Below are positions 2,328 to 15,812 of a stretch of 26,455 nt of DNA, piece by piece (positions within the stretch are counted from its first letter, which is position 1; every line of letters starts with the position of its first letter). Under the pieces are notes generated by a model that worked only from the letters and a program-made list of their open reading frames with translations, had not been told where the DNA came from and ran no database searches. The stretch covers positions 1 through 26,455 of IMG/VR virus record IMGVR_UViG_3300020579_000092; one strand, 5' to 3'. Position numbers and translations under genes: made by a program. This DNA comes from a virus.

Positions 2328-2623
2328 GGCTGGCCTTTCAGATGCTCTACTAGAAATGCTTTTGCTCGACCTCGCAGCACATCGTCCGTGCTGAATCGAA
2401 GCACTCGATAGCCCATCATTGTCGCCGCGTTGTACTTGTCGAGGTCGGCCTGATAACCTTTGCCGCGCGTATGCCTGCCTCGCGTCCAGATGGCCCCTTC
2501 AATCTCGATTGCTAACCGCGCATCTGGGAGCCAATAATCGAAGCGCCAGCGTCGCGTAGCGTGGAAACGATATTCCCGCTCAAAGGGCAGCCCAAGTTCT
2601 CGTAAATGCCGCTCAAGAAGCAC
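2324..2623 (-). CDS. Vsr-like/DUF559-type PD-(D/E)xK endonuclease, about 99 aa
   Basis: The core motifs in order are LERHLRELGLPFEREYRFH, RRWRFDYWLPDARLAIEIEG, GRHTRG, DLDKYNAA and GYRVLRFS. This is the layout of small Vsr/DUF559-like nucleases common in phages, with FDY plus EIEG as the likely metal-binding Asp/Glu residues. The chosen start is the GTG at 2623, just before the conserved core and overlapping the upstream HNH gene by 11 bases. A GTG at 2761 would add 46 residues but would overlap HNH-coding sequence by 149 bases. Neither start has a clear ribosome binding site. It probably nicks or cuts DNA; the substrate is unknown. Confidence 0.75.
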   Translation of the reverse strand: MLLERHLRELGLPFEREYRFHATRRWRFDYWLPDARLAIEIEGAIWTRGRHTRGKGYQADLDKYNAATMMGYRVLRFSTDDVLRGRAKAFLVEHLKGQP

Positions 2624-3068
2624 GTGTGCGGGGTTGATATGCTTCCCGCATCCTTTCTCGATTACAGGTGCGGCACATGCGGCCCTTCCAGTAGATATAT
2701 GTATTCTCTTTTGTGAATTCGTGACCACGCTTGCAATGGGTTTTTCTTGCGTTCTTTGCACAGATTCCCTCCCCGCGAAGCAGATTTTCTTTGCACGTTA
2801 CGATTTCAAGATGCGCTGGATTAACACAAGCGCGATTCCGGCATAGGTGGTCAAGTTGCTTACCTTCAGGGATTGGTCCATTTACAATTTCAAATACCAC
2901 GCGATGCGCAGAAAGCACCTTGAACTTATATCTCTCGATTTGTTGCGCAATCACGCCGTAACCATAACGATTCTTTGAACCAATCCAATTCCAACAAGTA
3001 GGCGTTTTTTCGACCCTACTCCATACGCGCTCTGATGCTGGTCGTGGCGGCCTACCTTCAGGATTCAT
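2613..3068 (-). CDS. HNH endonuclease with C-terminal zinc motif, 151 aa
   Basis: The start at 3068 is favoured over 3095 because GGTGGAGCAAGC precedes it. Residues 12-60 match the N-terminal part of phage HNH proteins (CWNWIG, YGYG, SAHRVVFE). The core is LDHLCRNRACVNPAHLE at 72-88, giving the His-Asn-His set and Cys ligands. A second metal site follows (THCKRGHEF at 110-118, then CRTCNRERMREAY), as in homing-type HNH proteins. It overlaps the neighbouring nuclease genes on both sides, forming a three-nuclease string. Non-specific or site-specific nicking is expected; the target is unknown. Confidence 0.88.
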   Translation of the reverse strand: MNPEGRPPRPASERVWSRVEKTPTCWNWIGSKNRYGYGVIAQQIERYKFKVLSAHRVVFEIVNGPIPEGKQLDHLCRNRACVNPAHLEIVTCKENLLRGEGICAKNARKTHCKRGHEFTKENTYIYWKGRMCRTCNRERMREAYQPRTRAS

Positions 3069-3387
3069 GCTTGCTCCACCTCGGCTTGCGTTCATCGAGC
3101 ATTGAATGGTGCTCGTGGCACAAAGCCTGTAGATTCAATAGCCTATCGTCTCTTTTTACGCTGCGCCTGACTACATGGTGCGGCTCTTGGGCCTCTCGCT
3201 GGCAGCGCCACGGTGTTACCCCTATAATCTCCAAGATCGCCTCACAGCGACCCCCACAACGCTCCCAGAGGGCCTTTTTACGCGCTAGCCAGTCAGCACC
3301 ATAGAGAATTTGCCTACCGTCTGGGGCAATGTAGCTCCTGAAATCTTCAAAGCCAGCCGCTAATGTCAGCTCTTTGTCCGCTTTCAT
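3058..3387 (-). CDS. HNH endonuclease, 109 aa
   Basis: ATG at 3387 with CACAGGAGTTGAG in front. The motif set is WERCGGRCEA at 41-50, C62, EPHHVVRR at 68-75 and NLQALCHEHH at 85-94, a typical compact HNH fold (beta-beta-alpha metal finger with Cys pairs). In many head-tail phages a small HNH protein next to the terminase aids packaging. Here the gene is about 11 kb from the terminase and on the other strand, so a homing or early nuclease role is more likely. Confidence 0.85.
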   Translation of the reverse strand: MKADKELTLAAGFEDFRSYIAPDGRQILYGADWLARKKALWERCGGRCEAILEIIGVTPWRCQREAQEPHHVVRRSVKRDDRLLNLQALCHEHHSMLDERKPRWSKHES

Positions 3388-4361: not shown

Positions 4362-4896
4362 AGTTTCTCCATAGTGCGTTTATCCCACCTCTTGCTTGGG
4401 CCTTTGACTTCGGGGTGCGAGGGGCAGAGCCCCTTAGCATCACAGAGTCGTGTTTAGAGAATAGCTCTGCTTGCTTGCTGCCGACTGGCTCCCAAATACA
4501 GTCAGCTTCGGGCTTAATGTCTCGCAGGGTAGAGACAATGCATTTTGCCTCAGCGATAGGTGGACCAGGTTGCTCGCCAGCAGAGCCTGGATTTGTATTC
4601 TCGCTTCGGCGCACAGCGCGGCGAATGACTCTCTCGTGATGGTCACAAAGTACGTGGTCAATTTTGAGGACATTTGCCGGTACTTGGAAGAGAAAGGGTG
4701 CTTTCGGTCTATCCACCGTGGGATTCGCTCGTAGCGCACTACTGGCGTCGAATCCAGCACCCACAGAAAATAGGATTGTAATTTCACCCGTTTGCTCTTC
4801 TAGGAACGAAGGGGGCTGACTCACAACGGGCAAACGGGTTAGGTGTGAACGCCGCAAGCCAGCCCGGAACTTGTTCCTGCGGAAAGTGTAAATCAT
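4336..4896 (-). CDS. Hypothetical protein, 186 aa
   Basis: The start at 4896 makes an ATGA overlap with the 55-aa gene upstream, which supports it. The N-terminus is basic (MIYTFRRNKFRAGLRRSHLT). The centre has IDHVLCDHHERVIRRAVRRS, where C and paired His could bind metal. The C-terminal half is polar and basic with PRTPKSKAQARGG. I recognise no domain. A 115-codon frame on the same strand overlaps it but lacks a matching junction. The call rests on length, junction and codon plausibility. Confidence 0.55.
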   Translation of the reverse strand: MIYTFRRNKFRAGLRRSHLTRLPVVSQPPSFLEEQTGEITILFSVGAGFDASSALRANPTVDRPKAPFLFQVPANVLKIDHVLCDHHERVIRRAVRRSENTNPGSAGEQPGPPIAEAKCIVSTLRDIKPEADCIWEPVGSKQAELFSKHDSVMLRGSAPRTPKSKAQARGGINALWRNYEKDAALL

Positions 4897-4914
4897 TGCG
4901 CCGCCTTGTCAAGC
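4893..4914. repeat. 22-bp exact direct repeat, copy 1
   Basis: This 22-bp stretch, encoding a final LDKAAQ plus stop on the minus strand, is identical to 6131-6152. Matching stops exactly at both flanks. The repeat therefore covers a gene 3' end and the next start overlap, and its two host genes are otherwise unlike each other. Confidence 0.9.
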
Positions 4915-5060
4915 GGAAAATGCTTCAAGATGAAGTAGGGCACGTCGTACATGGGAGTGACTTCCCACTTGCTCCAGTCAGACCCTTCCCAGCGCTCGCG
5001 CCGATACACGATTTTTCCTTTCTTAACCCATTGCGTCTCAACCCAGATTTCATCTCGCAT
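4893..5060 (-). CDS. Hypothetical Trp-rich small protein, 55 aa
   Basis: Found by direct translation: MRDEIWVETQWVKKGKIVYR, then RERWEGSDWSKWEVTPMYDV, ending PLDKAAQ and a stop. Four tryptophans and alternating charged and aromatic residues suggest a small beta sheet. It overlaps the 99-aa gene upstream by 11 bases and shares ATGA with the next gene. Its last 22 bases are identical to the last 22 bases of the 71-aa gene ending at 6131. Confidence 0.62.
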   Translation of the reverse strand: MRDEIWVETQWVKKGKIVYRRERWEGSDWSKWEVTPMYDVPYFILKHFPLDKAAQ

Positions 5061-5349
5061 GGTCAACTACTTTCTTCGGCCTGCCGCCCTTGCGCCCGTT
5101 CTTGCGGGAGGACTTTGCTTTTTTCTTGCTTTTGATGCTGCCCAACGCTACCGCAGCTGGATTCTTAGGCCACACATTTTCACGGGCATACTTGATTGCT
5201 TTTAACAGTGGTGTCTCACTTTCTTCGCAGAGCTTACCAATGGCTTGAGCATGCCCAACCATCAATGCGTCTCTCGCAATACGTAAGATTTTGCACGGAG
5301 CTCCCGGTTGATGATACCCTCCACAATAAACACAAACGTTTTGGCTCAT
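5050..5349 (-). CDS. Hypothetical protein with N-terminal CxxC and basic C-terminal tail, 99 aa
   Basis: The start at 5349 (MSQNVCVYCGGYHQPGAPC) is preferred to 5397 because the latter would run deep into the 161-aa gene. C6, C9, H13 and C19 form a possible zinc finger. A helical segment follows (TPLLKAIKYARENVW), then a strongly basic tail (SIKSKKKAKSSRKNGRKGGR) ending PKKVVDHAR, like a DNA-binding arm. Zinc finger plus AT-hook-like GRPKK suggests nucleic-acid binding. That role is inferred. Confidence 0.65.
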   Translation of the reverse strand: MSQNVCVYCGGYHQPGAPCKILRIARDALMVGHAQAIGKLCEESETPLLKAIKYARENVWPKNPAAVALGSIKSKKKAKSSRKNGRKGGRPKKVVDHAR

Positions 5350-5350
5350 A

Positions 5351-5836
5351 TCATTTATGCCGAGCAGCTTCAAAGGCTTCTTGTAGAATAATATCAACCG
5401 CCAAATAGATCGTAGGGGTGGTGCCCGTCTCGAATGTTCCTATGCGAAGGAATGGCTGTAGTTTATTGCGAGTCTCAGCCACCAAATCAAATATCCTCAC
5501 TTCAGAGATACCATCACGCCTTATTAGGTCGGCCAATTCGACTTCGATGCGCTCAATCTCTTTGACTACATCGAAATAAGCCAGCTCCCTGCACTCTGCT
5601 GCCAATTTCTTGGCTTCTAACCCACGCTTATTACTGCTCTCTGCAACCTCCCGAAATTCAAGTCTCCGGTTCTGCACATAGGCCATCAATTTGTCTCGAA
5701 ACTGTTTGACTGCCCACCATTCAGGCTTTGGAATCTTGGTATTGCCGCACGCCGGACAGCGATGCTCTTCTTGCTCGCTCTTGTCTACGAATCCAGATGG
5801 ACCGTAATGGTGCCGCATAAATCGCTCATCTGCCAT
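5351..5836 (-). CDS. Hypothetical helical protein with N-terminal zinc knuckle, 161 aa
   Basis: The start at 5836 is chosen because AAGGGGTTCGACA precedes it and it overlaps the upstream gene by 11 bases. H25, C27 and C30 (HRCPACGNTKIPKPEWW) look like half of a zinc ribbon. The rest is long charged helix (FREVAESSNKRGLEAKKLAA, VVKEIERIEVELADLIRR), probably coiled coil, ending in a small hydrophobic region. No family is recognised. It is second in the transcript from the promoter at 6047-6075. Confidence 0.68.
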   Translation of the reverse strand: MADERFMRHHYGPSGFVDKSEQEEHRCPACGNTKIPKPEWWAVKQFRDKLMAYVQNRRLEFREVAESSNKRGLEAKKLAAECRELAYFDVVKEIERIEVELADLIRRDGISEVRIFDLVAETRNKLQPFLRIGTFETGTTPTIYLAVDIILQEAFEAARHK

Positions 5837-6023
5837 TGTCGAACCCCTTGAACCACGCTTGAAACTCAGCCATATCAGGGTTGCGAGTAAAGAAAGATTC
5901 GCAAGTTTCACCAAACTCACGGCCTAGCACCCAAGAACAAACCATGCGGCGACCGCGCTCGATAGCTGATTCCTTGCCCCACTTAGCTGCGTGTTTCTCG
6001 ATGCGCTCTATGTATCCGTTCAT
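5826..6023 (-). CDS. Hypothetical protein, 65 aa, first gene of an inner leftward operon
   Basis: ATG at 6023 with GTGAGGCACGCC before it; a GTG at 6035 is an alternative in the same frame. The product reads MNGYIERIEKHAAKWGKESA, then a central RGRRMVCSWVLGREFGETCE, and ends MAEFQAWFKGFDNGR. It is helical, with no recognised family. It lies directly behind the best promoter of the left half, about 17 bases after the expected transcription start, so it may be expressed early and under operator control. Confidence 0.65.
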   Translation of the reverse strand: MNGYIERIEKHAAKWGKESAIERGRRMVCSWVLGREFGETCESFFTRNPDMAEFQAWFKGFDNGR

Positions 6024-6046
6024 GGCGTGCCTCACTTTCTAACCCC

Positions 6047-6075
6047 ATCTTACAACCTAGCGTTAGGTTTGTCAA
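6047..6075 (-). promoter_or_regulatory. Sigma70-like promoter with palindromic operator in the spacer
   Basis: On the minus strand, TTGACA (6070-6075) is followed by a 17-bp spacer and TAAGAT (6047-6052). The spacer contains the perfect inverted repeat AACCTA-N4-TAGGTT (6054-6069), which places a repressor-type site between the boxes. The 107-bp gap between genes (6024-6130) also has an AT-rich CTATTT/AAATAG inverted repeat (6089-6111) that could end transcription from the upstream genes. Box matches are seen directly; repressor control is inferred. Confidence 0.7.
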
Positions 6076-6130
6076 GCTAATTCTCAAACTATTTTACGGT
6101 AGAAGAAATAGCGAAACACTGGCTCCCCCC

Positions 6131-6152
6131 TCATTGCGCCGCCTTGTCAAGC
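6131..6152. repeat. 22-bp exact direct repeat, copy 2
   Basis: Identical to 4893-4914; it forms the 3' end (LDKAAQ plus stop) of the 71-aa gene. Unlike copy 1, no gene starts at its ATGA; a non-coding promoter region follows instead. Confidence 0.9.
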
Positions 6153-6346
6153 CTTTTCTGCTCAAGTATCGGCTTCCAGTCCGGCCTAGCTTGGTCTGCC
6201 ATGACTTCTTCGTAGAGCTTACTTCCTAACTGGGGTACTGCTAGGTGCCGCCCGCGAACAATGAGACAGCTACATGTGAATACCGAGCCAACACGCTCAT
6301 TCCACTCAACGAACTTTAATTCTTGCCCGCACCAAGCACATTTCAT
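6131..6346 (-). CDS. Small zinc-ribbon-like protein, 71 aa
   Basis: ATG at 6346 shares ATGA with the end of the methyltransferase gene. C3, C6, C25 and C27 (MKCAWCGQEL, TCSCLIVRG) form a plausible four-Cys zinc site. A helical tail follows, ending EQKRLDKAAQ. The gene is last in its string before the promoter gap. Its last 22 bases recur at the end of the 55-aa gene at 4893. Function unknown. Confidence 0.65.
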   Translation of the reverse strand: MKCAWCGQELKFVEWNERVGSVFTCSCLIVRGRHLAVPQLGSKLYEEVMADQARPDWKPILEQKRLDKAAQ

Positions 6347-7032
6347 TTGAGTGCCTCGCCTGAAAAGTCAAGCACTTCTTGAGAGAGTCTTTTGGCTGCG
6401 ATTTCGCAGTATGGCTCGTGAATCTCAATGCCTATTGCTTTGCGGCTTAAGTCCTTCGCCGCTCGCAGCGTTGTACCTGAACCCATGAATGGGTCGAGCA
6501 AAGTTCCCTTAGTTCGCAGGCGTTTGATGATTTTCTTGAACAACCCTAGCGGCTTTGGGCATGGATGGTTCCCAGTGTCGGACTGCTCGCTGATAGGCTG
6601 ACGAAAAACATCACTACAAGAAAACATGCAGCCCCAAACTAGGATTGGCTCCCACTCGTTCCATTGAAAGGGGTTAGCTCTGCCCGTAGCTCCGGGTTTA
6701 TACCAACATGCCGTTGCAACAGGTTCGTACTTTGCCCACAGTGATAGGTTGCCGACGCCGGGGAAAACAATGCGCTTTTCTGGAACGAGACACCACCATG
6801 AGCCAATCCAATCATGGTATTGGCCCGGAGTCATCGCATCGTCGTGAACTCCATAATCTTTCCCGACATTGTAGGGAGGGTCAGTAAGCAATATGTCGGC
6901 GTCAACTTGCAGCAAAATCTCTCTGCAATCGCCTAAAAAGATGGCGCAGGAATTATCTTCGTAGTAAGGCTTTAGACCGAGCGGCGGCAGTGGAAGCGAC
7001 TCGTCCAAGTTACTTGTTCTTATTCGGCTCAT
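6343..7032 (-). CDS. DNA (adenine-N6 or cytosine-N4) methyltransferase, beta class, 229 aa
   Basis: The catalytic motif IV TDPPYNVGK lies at 50-58, and the S-adenosylmethionine-binding motif I DPFMGSGTT lies near the C-terminus at 180-188, followed by GIEI at 201-204. This order (IV before I) and HPCPKP at 156-161 fit the N6/N4 methyltransferase (MTase_N6_N4) family. Length is normal for phage orphan enzymes. DPPY fits N6-adenine methylation best, but N4-cytosine is possible. No cognate restriction enzyme is adjacent, so it probably protects phage DNA or marks it for regulation. ATG at 7032 overlaps the 45-aa gene (ATGA). Confidence 0.93.
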   Translation of the reverse strand: MSRIRTSNLDESLPLPPLGLKPYYEDNSCAIFLGDCREILLQVDADILLTDPPYNVGKDYGVHDDAMTPGQYHDWIGSWWCLVPEKRIVFPGVGNLSLWAKYEPVATACWYKPGATGRANPFQWNEWEPILVWGCMFSCSDVFRQPISEQSDTGNHPCPKPLGLFKKIIKRLRTKGTLLDPFMGSGTTLRAAKDLSRKAIGIEIHEPYCEIAAKRLSQEVLDFSGEALK

Positions 7033-11374: not shown

Positions 11375-11548
11375 TCACCCTTGAGAGTCTGGCTTCGGAT
11401 GAGCCTGCGACTGGAAGTACAAGTCCAGCGCGTAATTCAGCAGCCAGCTAATCGTGTGCCCGTTAGCCTTGGCGATGCGCCGCAATTCCTTGTAGCGCTT
11501 CTTGGTGACTCTGACTGGTACTGTCTCGCTCATGCGGTGGTCGCTCAT
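11375..11548 (-). CDS. Ribbon-helix-helix (Arc/CopG-like) DNA-binding protein, about 52-57 aa
   Basis: The core ETVPVRVTKKRYKELRRIAK then NGHTISWLLNYALDLYF has the strand-helix-helix pattern of Arc/CopG repressors: a short strand (VPVRV) for the DNA groove, then two helices. Starts at 11548 or 11533 are possible (GTG at 11557 too); none has a good ribosome binding site, and 11548 lies only nine bases after the -10 box. It is the first gene of the leftward block, directly behind a promoter whose -35 box sits in an inverted repeat, so self-regulation is likely but inferred. Confidence 0.75.
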   Translation of the reverse strand: MSDHRMSETVPVRVTKKRYKELRRIAKANGHTISWLLNYALDLYFQSQAHPKPDSQG

Positions 11549-11557
11549 GGTGAACAC

Positions 11558-11595
11558 AATGTAGCATGTTGCCTACTTTTGTGTCAAGCACAAAA
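11558..11595 (-). promoter_or_regulatory. Leftward promoter with inverted repeat over the -35 box
   Basis: On the minus strand: TTGACA (11582-11587), an 18-bp spacer and TACATT (11558-11563). A perfect inverted repeat TTTTGTG-N5-CACAAAA (11577-11595) is centred on the -35 box, and the spacer holds an imperfect repeat (GTAGGCA...TGCTAC). A dimeric repressor bound there would block polymerase. The ribbon-helix-helix protein encoded just downstream is the obvious candidate. Confidence 0.68.
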
Positions 11596-11883: not shown

Positions 11884-12302
11884 CCCAGCGTGGAATCAGG
11901 GATGGAGCCGACTAACTGAAATTGCACCCTCGATTGGAGCAGGAGTCGAGGCCGTGAACCTGCCTGATAGGTTGTGGGGAAGTGAAGCAGAAACCCTCCC
12001 TATAAGGGTTTAAGGCGAGGTGTATAGGGCACCCCGCCCTAAAAGTTCGGCTCGAAGTGTGCGAATTACATGCCCACCGCAGCCGCGCGTACCAGCAATC
12101 TAGCCCGATCCGAGGAGAAACGCAAGCAGAAAGAATTTAGGCCCTAGCCCCTCCGTCTCTAAAAACAAAAGCAGAAAGGGCCAGCTCTAACGCGGCTGAC
12201 CCGTAGGCGTGACTAGCGCCGGCGCAACACGCGAGCGGAGGGCTGGACTAGGACTGATTCAGCAAAGCATATTCAGTCCTAAGCAGATATTTTGTTTTCT
12301 TC

Positions 12303-13463: not shown

Positions 13464-13904
13464 GTGCGAAAGATATTCAGCCAACGTGCCAGAATCGTGG
13501 TTTATTTGGAGAACGAGGCGGTAGACCGGATGCTGGAGAAGGCGCGTGGCGGGGGCCAGACGCTGGTGGAATGGGCGCGGGAGACGCTGCTTGGAGAACT
13601 TGAGGACGATACAGCGAAAGATGGAGCTTGCCGAAGGTGCGGAGAGAAGTGCGACTACTGTGATGCTGGTGACGACAAAGCGATGCGACGGGTTGAGCCA
13701 GTACGTGTGGCTGGACGGCGGACTGGTACGCCTAAGCGAGTTGCCGAGCCTGCCGCGTCACCTGAAGGTGCGGTTGATGGAGTTGTCCACGAATATGTTG
13801 AGCAGGTTGCCGTACAGCAAGTTAGGGGCACCAAGACCTGCGTTCACGGAGTCGCAAAAGGCTGGCGCTGCTGGCAGTGCGGCGGACCAGCGATAATCGA
13901 ATGA
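13464..13904 (+). CDS. Ribbon-helix-helix-like protein with two zinc motifs, 146 aa
   Basis: GTG at 13464. Residues 9-46 (ARIVVYLENEAVDRMLEKAR, GGGQTLVEWARETLLGELE) have the strand-helix-helix pattern of CopG-like DNA-binding proteins. A four-Cys cluster follows (C56, C59, C63, C66 in CRRCGEKCDYC). A basic linker of about 55 residues leads to a second site (C126, H128, C136, C139 in TCVHGVAKGWRCWQCGG). Strand-helix-helix plus two zinc knuckles is unusual. Two long overlapping frames exist here because the stretch is GC-rich. A regulator of the late block is a reasonable guess. Confidence 0.62.
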   Translation: MRKIFSQRARIVVYLENEAVDRMLEKARGGGQTLVEWARETLLGELEDDTAKDGACRRCGEKCDYCDAGDDKAMRRVEPVRVAGRRTGTPKRVAEPAASPEGAVDGVVHEYVEQVAVQQVRGTKTCVHGVAKGWRCWQCGGPAIIE

Positions 13905-14315: not shown

Positions 14316-15812
14316 ATGGGCTATCGGCAAGGCATTCTCGAACTCAAGGACGCGATAGTTGGCCTTGAGAAACTTCCAAAGTCCAAGCAATTTGTGACAT
14401 CCAAGTTCTTTGGCTCCGCCTACGTCGGTGGCGAGGGTTCCTCTAAGACTGCCTCTCTTTGCTGTGCGGCGATCTGTAATGCTTGGCTAGACCATGGTGG
14501 GAAGTCCCTCATTGGCCGTCTTAATATGCCTGCCCTTGAGTCCACCACCATGAATGACTTCCTTTCGATGGTCCCCGCCGACATGGGAGAGTGGAAAGAA
14601 CAGCCTAAAACATGGGTTTTCTCTAACGGCCACACGGTCATTTTCCGTCACTTGGATATTTCCGATCCCAAAGTCACAGGTCACATCAAATCCGAGAACC
14701 TTAGCGCCGCCTACGTCGATGAAGCCTCGGAAGTCGATGAAAAGGTGTTTTTGCTGCTAGTCGGACGTATGCGCCGGGCTGGTTCGCAGCGGCGGATTCT
14801 CCGTCTTTCTTCCAACCCTGCTGGCCACGACTACATGTGGAAGCACTTTTTCGACCCCAACCGGAAACCAGAGTGGAAACAGCTTTTTGAGGGTATCAGC
14901 GCGTCCTCGATGGACAATATTTTCCTTCCCGCCGACACCGTAAACAGGAACCTGAGTATTTATCCGGCAGATTGGGCCGACCGCTTCATTTATGGGCATT
15001 TTTCTGACTTCACCGACCTGGTTTATAAGGAGTTTACAGAAGAATCCCACGTCTGGGATGACCGACCGGGCCTGGAATATGAGATTTTTAATGGCCGCTC
15101 GAATCCGCCGCTGGATTGGCCCGTGATCGTAGGCATGGACATCGGCGGCGGTGAGGAAGGCGACCCGTGGGCGCTCACTTTCGATTCCATAGCCCCCGAT
15201 GGGCGGCTGTATCAGTTTGCCGAGATTTACGGCTCTGAACTTCGCATCAAGCCGATTGCCGAACAGTTCCATGAAAAAATGGAAGGCCGAACTCTTGACG
15301 GCATGGCCTACGATTATGCCCAGCGCGCGGCAGCGATTGAACTCGAAGAATACGGGATAGGCGGTCAGTCGGCCATCAAGGATGTTAAACCGGGCCTCTT
15401 TAAGACTGCTCAGTACATGCACGTTGACCCCACGCTTTCGCACCCGTTTAATTCCAGAATTTCCGGTTCTCCGCGTTCTTTTATGGCCAAATCCTGCATG
15501 AACACGATTCGGGAACACGGCAGTTATAAGTGGGCGAAAGATAGGTCAGGCAACGCCAAAAACGAACCATCCCACGAAAACAGCCACGGTCCCGACGCCA
15601 AGCGCTACGCGATTCATACTTTCCGGCCGCTGCCGGCACAAATCACAGAGCCTAAAATCTGGGAAAACAGGAAACTCGACATCGCCAGTCGCCTCTACTG
15701 GCAGCGCGCCAAAGAGCACGAAGAGAAGGAACCTTTGCGCCGCAAAGGATTTAGTACTTTCACTTTAGCCAGAAAAAGAGTAGAACAAAGACGGGAGATA
15801 CCGCCGCAATGA
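14316..15812 (+). CDS. terL: Terminase large subunit, 498 aa
   Basis: This is the packaging motor. The ATPase has a variant Walker A GGEGSSKT at 38-45, Walker B AAYVDEA at 131-137 with catalytic Glu, and the coupling motif SSNPAG at 165-170. The RNase H-like nuclease begins at GMDIGGG (D275), continues with AYDYA (D333) and ends with HGPDAKRYA (D427), giving three acidic metal ligands. Length is normal. The ATPase pumps DNA into the portal and the nuclease cuts the concatemer. Start at ATG 14316 behind GGGGTAAAA. The next gene overlaps it by four bases. Confidence 0.95.
   Translation: MGYRQGILELKDAIVGLEKLPKSKQFVTSKFFGSAYVGGEGSSKTASLCCAAICNAWLDHGGKSLIGRLNMPALESTTMNDFLSMVPADMGEWKEQPKTWVFSNGHTVIFRHLDISDPKVTGHIKSENLSAAYVDEASEVDEKVFLLLVGRMRRAGSQRRILRLSSNPAGHDYMWKHFFDPNRKPEWKQLFEGISASSMDNIFLPADTVNRNLSIYPADWADRFIYGHFSDFTDLVYKEFTEESHVWDDRPGLEYEIFNGRSNPPLDWPVIVGMDIGGGEEGDPWALTFDSIAPDGRLYQFAEIYGSELRIKPIAEQFHEKMEGRTLDGMAYDYAQRAAAIELEEYGIGGQSAIKDVKPGLFKTAQYMHVDPTLSHPFNSRISGSPRSFMAKSCMNTIREHGSYKWAKDRSGNAKNEPSHENSHGPDAKRYAIHTFRPLPAQITEPKIWENRKLDIASRLYWQRAKEHEEKEPLRRKGFSTFTLARKRVEQRREIPPQ

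Follow-up and report, generated by a model that had tools for sequence, protein, structure and literature searches.

A small DNA-binding protein, encoded by the third gene downstream, very probably docks on a palindrome that fills the spacer of a strong promoter in this viral DNA. The fuller explanation, that this protein represses its own promoter by means of a DNA-binding module that appears undescribed, is one that we consider likely on the sequence comparisons presented here. The whole stretch analysed (the window) is 26,455 nt long and comes from IMG/VR as a virus record. It encodes a large terminase at 14316-15812, and its left part is a block of small minus-strand genes. The same pairing of protein and site is met again in unrelated phages, on plasmids and in bacterial genomes, which suggests a family of self-switching repressors that has been overlooked. 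The features are collected in Table 1.

Table 1. Features of the window and of the plasmid regions compared with it.
Feature	Position	Strand	Remarks
Sigma-70-type promoter TTGACA-N17-TAAGAT, operon head	6047..6075	-	10/12 consensus letters; same layout in 13 viral stretches
Palindromic operator (putative) AACCTA-ACGC-TAGGTT, class CCTA-NCGN-TAGG	6054..6069	.	AACCTAGCGTTAGGTT on the + strand
First gene, 65 aa, ATG 6023	5826..6023	-	no known family (Pfam, PHROGs)
Second gene, 161 aa, one CxxC	5351..5836	-	no known family
Third gene, 99 aa, proposed autorepressor with GGRP module	5050..5349	-	module regular expression, alignments, model
Module-bearing stretch KNPAAVALGSIKSKKKAKSSRKNGRKGGRPKK, predicted helix-turn-helix hairpin and GRP arm	5065..5175	-	alignments, AlphaFold2 model
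DUF4160-DUF2442 pairs	plasmid regions L178-L180
Hypothetical gene and DUF2442 gene	plasmid region L177
DUF2442 gene alone	plasmid region L181

A putative operator in the promoter spacer

On the minus strand the promoter reads TTGACA-AACCTAACGCTAGGTT-G-TAAGAT, with the -35 hexamer at 6075-6070, the -10 hexamer at 6052-6047 and a spacer of 17 nt. The palindrome has perfect 6+6 arms and fills 16 of the 17 spacer bases. The promoter is placed in a 107-nt gap between the gene at 6131-6346 and the ATG at 6023-6021, and it heads what looks like a separate transcription unit, in line with the proposal of the first-pass annotation that it divides the left block. Perfect palindromes with arms of at least 6 and gaps of 0-12 are common in the window (62 in all), and the motif, allowing up to three mismatches, is not enriched there (7 found, 5.6 expected); the palindrome alone therefore carries no weight. 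When promoters with at least 10 of 12 consensus letters and such a palindrome inside the spacer were counted, the real window held one, the mean was 0.0075 per dinucleotide shuffle, and one or more occurred in 3 of 400 shuffles. Together with the coordinates, this confirms the arrangement first noticed, two hexamers 17 bp apart with a palindrome filling the spacer. A search for DNA relatives of 5400-6700 among annotated phages found none.

The operon behind the promoter

The list of open reading frames gives the first gene a GTG start at 6035; the ATG at 6023-6021 has GTGAGG before it and looks the likelier start. The three operon genes overlap by 11 nt or stand one base apart, which makes a single transcript likely. 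A related contig, L004, shares 114 nt with the window at 98 percent across promoter and leader and has an unrelated first gene behind the same promoter, the divergence starting just past the start codon. The promoter therefore behaves like a cassette. Another contig, L016, carries a relative of the window's first gene (87 percent identity) and a module protein, without such a palindrome.

The promoter-operator recurs with a GGRP-module protein

Viral contigs were searched with the pattern TTGACANACCTANNNNTAGGTNNTANNNT. Promoter and palindrome were found together in 13 stretches, compared to none for a control pattern of equal length and letter count with its half-site permuted. The earlier annotation had proposed looking for the palindrome in relatives, and this outcome favours its idea of a repressor-type operator in the spacer, as does the recurrence of the site with a promoter in the module-search clusters described below. 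The 13 stretches represent at most 11 distinct phages, because the genes of L003, L008 and L010 show these three to be a single phage. The centre, which the pattern left unconstrained, is CG in 12 of the 13 and TG in L011.

All 13 stretches encode, within ~1.3 kb of the promoter-operator, a protein with a module of ~35 residues and the consensus LGSIKSxKKAxSSxxNGxxGGRP (in a longer form, AAxxLGSIKSxKKAxSSxxNGxxGGRPKK). The window protein fits its degenerate form, LG...[ST]..K...S..NG..GG(R)P. The regular expression for the module caught 11 of them, and the other two were recognised separately by reading: in L013, A replaces the first S and the module stands, as read, at the protein start, and in L010 the module is cut by the contig end. 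The module gene lies downstream on the same strand in 11 stretches. It is divergent in L009 and just upstream in L015, and there its own promoter, directly before the gene, has a further operator (L009) or a half-operator (L015).

The linkage was also counted from the side of the module. A scan of viral contigs with module alignments gave 119 places, of which 80 loci were kept, and a second module scan gave 78 loci, 7 of them already known and others on contigs of the first scan. Dereplication by protein chained unlike loci and was abandoned for clustering by upstream DNA, by which the 171 module genes in total form 110 clusters. Dropping 13 of these (pattern-selected loci and the same contigs) left 97, among which stays L016, found through its relative of the first gene and lacking a site. 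A site was defined as a promoter spacer of 16-18 nt holding CCTA..TAGG with at least 7 of 8 letters. With this 7/8 threshold, picked after a first look at the data, as the module types were, a site was found upstream of the module in 49/97 clusters compared to 3/97 downstream (Fisher 6e-15; stretches averaging 1151 and 1094 nt). When the 80 loci were first dereplicated, the counts had been 38/65 upstream and 1/65 downstream. The 48 clusters with no site by this definition include some in which the contig begins just upstream; others are unexplained. CCTA ranked top of all 256 four-letter half-sites (49; median 3), and the next-ranked ones, AACC, ACCT, TAAC and CTAA, are its shifted neighbours. 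The unscored centre was CG in 26 of 29 centre-4 sites, the spacer was 17 in 37 of 49 sites (over an allowed range of 16-18 only), and the positions adjoining the half-sites were A or T in 36-38 of 38 sites.

Module inserts and the width of the operator

Some modules carry a four-residue insert, LGRKGGSVKS in place of LGSIKS, and these tend to go with CCTAA-NCGN-TTAGG, which is one base wider per half. Among the 97 clusters, inserted modules with a site had centre 6 in 8/9 cases and centre 4 in none, compared to centre 4 in 29/39 and centre 6 in 4/39 for uninserted modules; the P values of this covariation (5e-6 for 4 against 6; 5.5e-5 for 4 against all others) are optimistic because thresholds and types were set post hoc and inserted modules may share ancestry. 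The CG centre was kept in 6 of 8 wide sites. One locus, L086, has both module types, and its centre-4 operator stands directly before the uninserted one. In the uninserted modules with centre 6 (L076, L090, L091 and L116) the first half differs by eye. A search for the wide operator, set as a forward test, gave four stretches, two on known contigs and two new, and both new loci encode an inserted module, 1243 and 572 nt downstream. The centre-5 operator in the same forward test gave one stretch without a module, so that this prediction failed. Other inserts, LGRLSKGKTS and LGSLSKGKTS, were seen in L186/L213 and L214 with a centre-7 palindrome, CCTACTCATAGTAGG or CCTACTTAGAGTAGG, possibly a further step of the spacing rule.

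Nature of the module

No significant match on the module was found with Pfam and NCBIfam for 42 members or with PHROGs for 10 proteins. Within these searches there was no ribbon-helix-helix family on the module protein and no significant helix-turn-helix match on the module; the best regulator-named matches, SlyA (E 0.091) and MreA (E 0.11), came from one member each and lie far below the cut-off. The AT-hook was absent among the 20 Pfam families matched by the 42 members at E <=5, a search in which the HMMER filters may drop weak matches. The most frequent weak match was DUF6291 (PF19808), seen in 10 of the 42 members with a best E of 0.019, far below the Pfam cut-off. The likeness is between its last ~20 positions and the NG..GGRP end of the module, and for the window protein it covers positions 60-79 of 79 only.

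The module is what the loci share, because the N-termini are mostly unrelated and many proteins are barely longer than the module. At least 40 residues precede it in 57 of the 110 cluster representatives, falling in 42 groups at E 1e-3, and the other 53 are little more than the module; these counts use first-ATG guesses for the starts and include a few genes truncated where the contig stops. An AlphaFold2 model of the window protein, built with 41 relatives, reached a mean pLDDT of 76 and a pTM of 0.33. In this model the module is predicted to form helices 63-70 and 74-87 with a short turn between them (pLDDT of the block 81-87) and then GRPKK, with no strand. Fold and profile searches gave no solved structure that matches the module. 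The fold search with the window protein model returned a single, meaningless match at E 8.9, and the profile searches of solved structures returned only designed repeat proteins through AA-LG stretches, which we rejected. The match to the DUF2442 structures 3k8r and 2x8n stops before the GGRP end. A model of the DUF2442 protein with a module from L023 was discarded at pLDDT 52.

Plasmids and bacterial genomes

Variants of the pair are also present on plasmids and chromosomes, where the GGRP module is the C-terminal end of some DUF2442 proteins. On plasmids, the module query matched eight records, all annotated DUF2442, and five regions were examined (L177-L181, Table 1). PF10387 (DUF2442) was positive in the plasmid regions L177-L181 and in the genome stretches L019 and L023, and in 7/7 of these the Pfam model ends before the module. 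In L177 and L179 a script located the palindrome ahead of the operon, within a promoter-like spacer. In L178, L180 and L181 a similar palindrome, without recognised hexamers, was seen by eye within 160 nt before the operon; the modules there are inserted and the palindromes are of the 14-nt, centre-6 form.

The scan of genomes with the operator pattern gave nine stretches. L018 carries the module, as do at least 27 of 396 genomes from its phylum (labelled Acidobacteria). L019 has a gene for DUF2442 with the module downstream of a GGCC-centred site, and L023 has a GGCC-centred site at the contig end with such a gene on the other strand. The sites of L020-L022, L024 and L025 differ in their centres, and the regular expression detects no module in these stretches, L020 being uninformative with only 83 nt downstream; we take these five as chance. 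At the bacterial module places, scored by CC[TC]A..T[AG]GG with looser promoters allowed, a full-score site stood upstream in 15/31 and downstream in 2/31, and at 7 of 8 letters in 17/31 and 5/31. A recount by hand without L183-L185 (pattern-selected) and L213 (same stretch as L186) gave 12/26 and 1/26.

In the remaining stretch, L017, from a contig labelled as an Anaerolinea thermophila MAG, positions 2873-3061 hold three direct repeats spaced 73-74 nt apart, which resemble the last part of a CRISPR array. One of its spacers contains the promoter TTGACA-AACCTAGCGTTAGGTT-G-TATAAT, which suggests that promoters of this kind are CRISPR targets. The 32-nt core of this spacer had no exact match in any viral contig.

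Genes behind the operator

Of the 189 operon proteins listed as neighbours in the module search, 100 were scanned. Pfam matched 11 families, the integrase family by two proteins and the others by one each, and PHROGs matched 48 families, none by more than two proteins among the 25 listed. PADLOC matched two families, and among these 100 neighbours it was not borne out that the operator guards known defence genes. In L018 (2019-3276) and L111 (3001-4325) the module gene comes first and is followed by a long gene. Judging by their sequences, we take the two phage-integrase matches to be these long genes. On that reading, the switch may control integration in some elements. In a public podovirus (L182, MW202801.1), two genes separate a gene with an inserted module from the annotated antirestriction protein that precedes it, and no such palindrome was found before the gene taken as the operon start.

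Proposed mechanism and alternative readings

We propose that the strong promoter, free of repressor at entry, would transcribe the operon and with it the repressor gene. The repressor would then bind the two half-sites (A)ACCTA-N in two copies through the ~35-residue module (helix, turn, helix and GGRP arm), cover the spacer and keep RNA polymerase off. As repressor accumulates the operon would shut down, a negative autoregulation giving a burst of early expression. Binding as a dimer, repression rather than activation and the early timing are what we infer from the layout, and the GRP arm may contact the minor groove of the A/T flanks.

A regulator of a known class (XRE, TetR or ribbon-helix-helix, of host or phage) might bind the palindrome, with the GGRP protein as a conserved passenger. 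Palindromic operators are usual for helix-turn-helix dimers and no structure puts the module on DNA, yet no Pfam or PHROGs family among the matches listed was hit by more than two of the 100 neighbours scanned, the module type tracks the operator width and, for the wide class, predicting the module from the operator succeeded; such a regulator is unlikely. It also seems improbable that the module protein binds and activates or fine-tunes transcription as MerR does. The palindrome does lie within the spacer as it does in MerR promoters, but those have spacers of 19-20, longer than the 16-18 found here by a scan confined to that range, and the hexamers are near consensus, so that no activator seems needed.

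The first-pass annotation had two ribbon-helix-helix candidates in mind and a related arm pair at 11957-11973, so that one such protein of the phage would act there and at 6047-6075. An Arc-like protein is indeed encoded at 11375-11533 (PHROGs, E 2e-4; Pfam matches only subthreshold), but its gene has a different palindrome of its own, TTTTGTG-TCAAG-CACAAAA at 11577-11595, which overlaps the -35 of a promoter TTGACA-N18-TACATT with TG before the -10. Protein and palindrome are possibly a second, separate autorepressor. The other candidate, 13464-13904, matches no ribbon-helix-helix family in PHROGs or Pfam. The arm pair (AACCTGCCTGATAGGTT) is present, but it has a gap of 7 and no CG centre, the promoter scan lists nothing there, and it is probably chance; neither candidate is thus supported, and we regard this reading as very improbable. 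In the 13 viral stretches the companion of the operator is the GGRP-module protein, in the window ORF 5050-5349. A palindrome that arose by chance in a single promoter would fit the lack of enrichment of the motif class in the window. This is contradicted by the shuffles, by the recurrence in viral contigs against an empty control and by the excess of module-linked sites upstream, and is almost certainly wrong.

Beyond the autorepressor of the window, we lean towards a wider interpretation, with more reserve. The GGRP module may be a stand-alone DNA-binding domain that serves as the reading head of phage autorepressors, DUF2442 antitoxins and other proteins, with inserts between its helices shifting the half-site spacing. 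The guarded operons, in which an exchangeable promoter cassette precedes small first genes that vary, would then be a route to unknown early phage functions.

Comparison with known systems

Arc and Mnt, of the ribbon-helix-helix class, are small phage repressors with palindromic operators overlapping promoters; in contrast, the GGRP module has two predicted helices and no strand. The GRP arms of AT-hooks and Hin reach into the minor groove. There GRP stands next to basic residues, as in the module, and the operator flanks are A/T; unlike an AT-hook, the module has two conserved helices and an operator that contains G/C. Some DUF2442 proteins of DhiTA-type DUF4160-DUF2442 pairs share the C-terminal GGRP module and a related upstream palindrome. 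The window protein differs from this type: ORF 5050-5349 has no PF10387 match at E <=5, and no DUF4160 partner was found in the two genes that precede it.

In PMC8198452, the antitoxin of DhiTA, a DUF4160/DUF2442 pair of Dickeya dadantii, lowers the activity of its own promoter by ~50 percent; each of the three antitoxins tested there, DhiA included, does so by ~50 percent and the complexes by 70-99 percent. A pair of this type is linked to plasmid persistence in Thermus in PMC12724237, and one is listed in PMC12654330. Anti-CRISPR-associated (Aca) autorepressors are the subject of PMC9410906 and PMC8434428. They are small phage regulators, encoded after small genes that vary, and each represses the operon it belongs to by way of an inverted repeat in the promoter. 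The operon in the window shares the inverted repeat in its promoter. Aca proteins are helix-turn-helix proteins, whereas the GGRP module has no significant match of that kind in Pfam, NCBIfam or PHROGs, and no anti-CRISPR was identified among the mostly unknown neighbours.

Negative autoregulation through an operator in the spacer thus follows a known logic, that of Aca and of antitoxin autorepressors, and the module itself appears undescribed in the open literature. In that literature (subscription journals and preprints being outside the scope), the module strings and six operator cores occurred only in unrelated papers, DUF4160 together with the operator gave none, and AT-hook together with phage repressor gave only unrelated papers. 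If the proposal is true, a widespread class of very small regulators in phages would gain both a name and a mechanism, and it would suggest how a subset of DUF2442 antitoxins reads DNA. It would also provide a compact module for DNA binding whose spacing rule is simple, and the promoter and operator together would be a sequence tag for early operons of uncultured phages.

Short shared segments in the left block

The sequence TTGACAAGGCGGCGCAATGA recurs without a mismatch where genes end (DKAAQ stop), twice in the window (6131-6150 and 4893-4912) and once in each of two relatives, L004 (5343-5362) and L016 (2367-2386). It has the look of a joint at which small genes recombine. At 4612-4683 of the window, L004 and L016 match 68 nt at 98-100 percent identity although the surrounding genes differ, an exchange of very short segments. 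The left block also encodes HNH-type endonucleases at 624-1142, by a PHROGs match, and at 2613-3095, recognised by eye from the translation.
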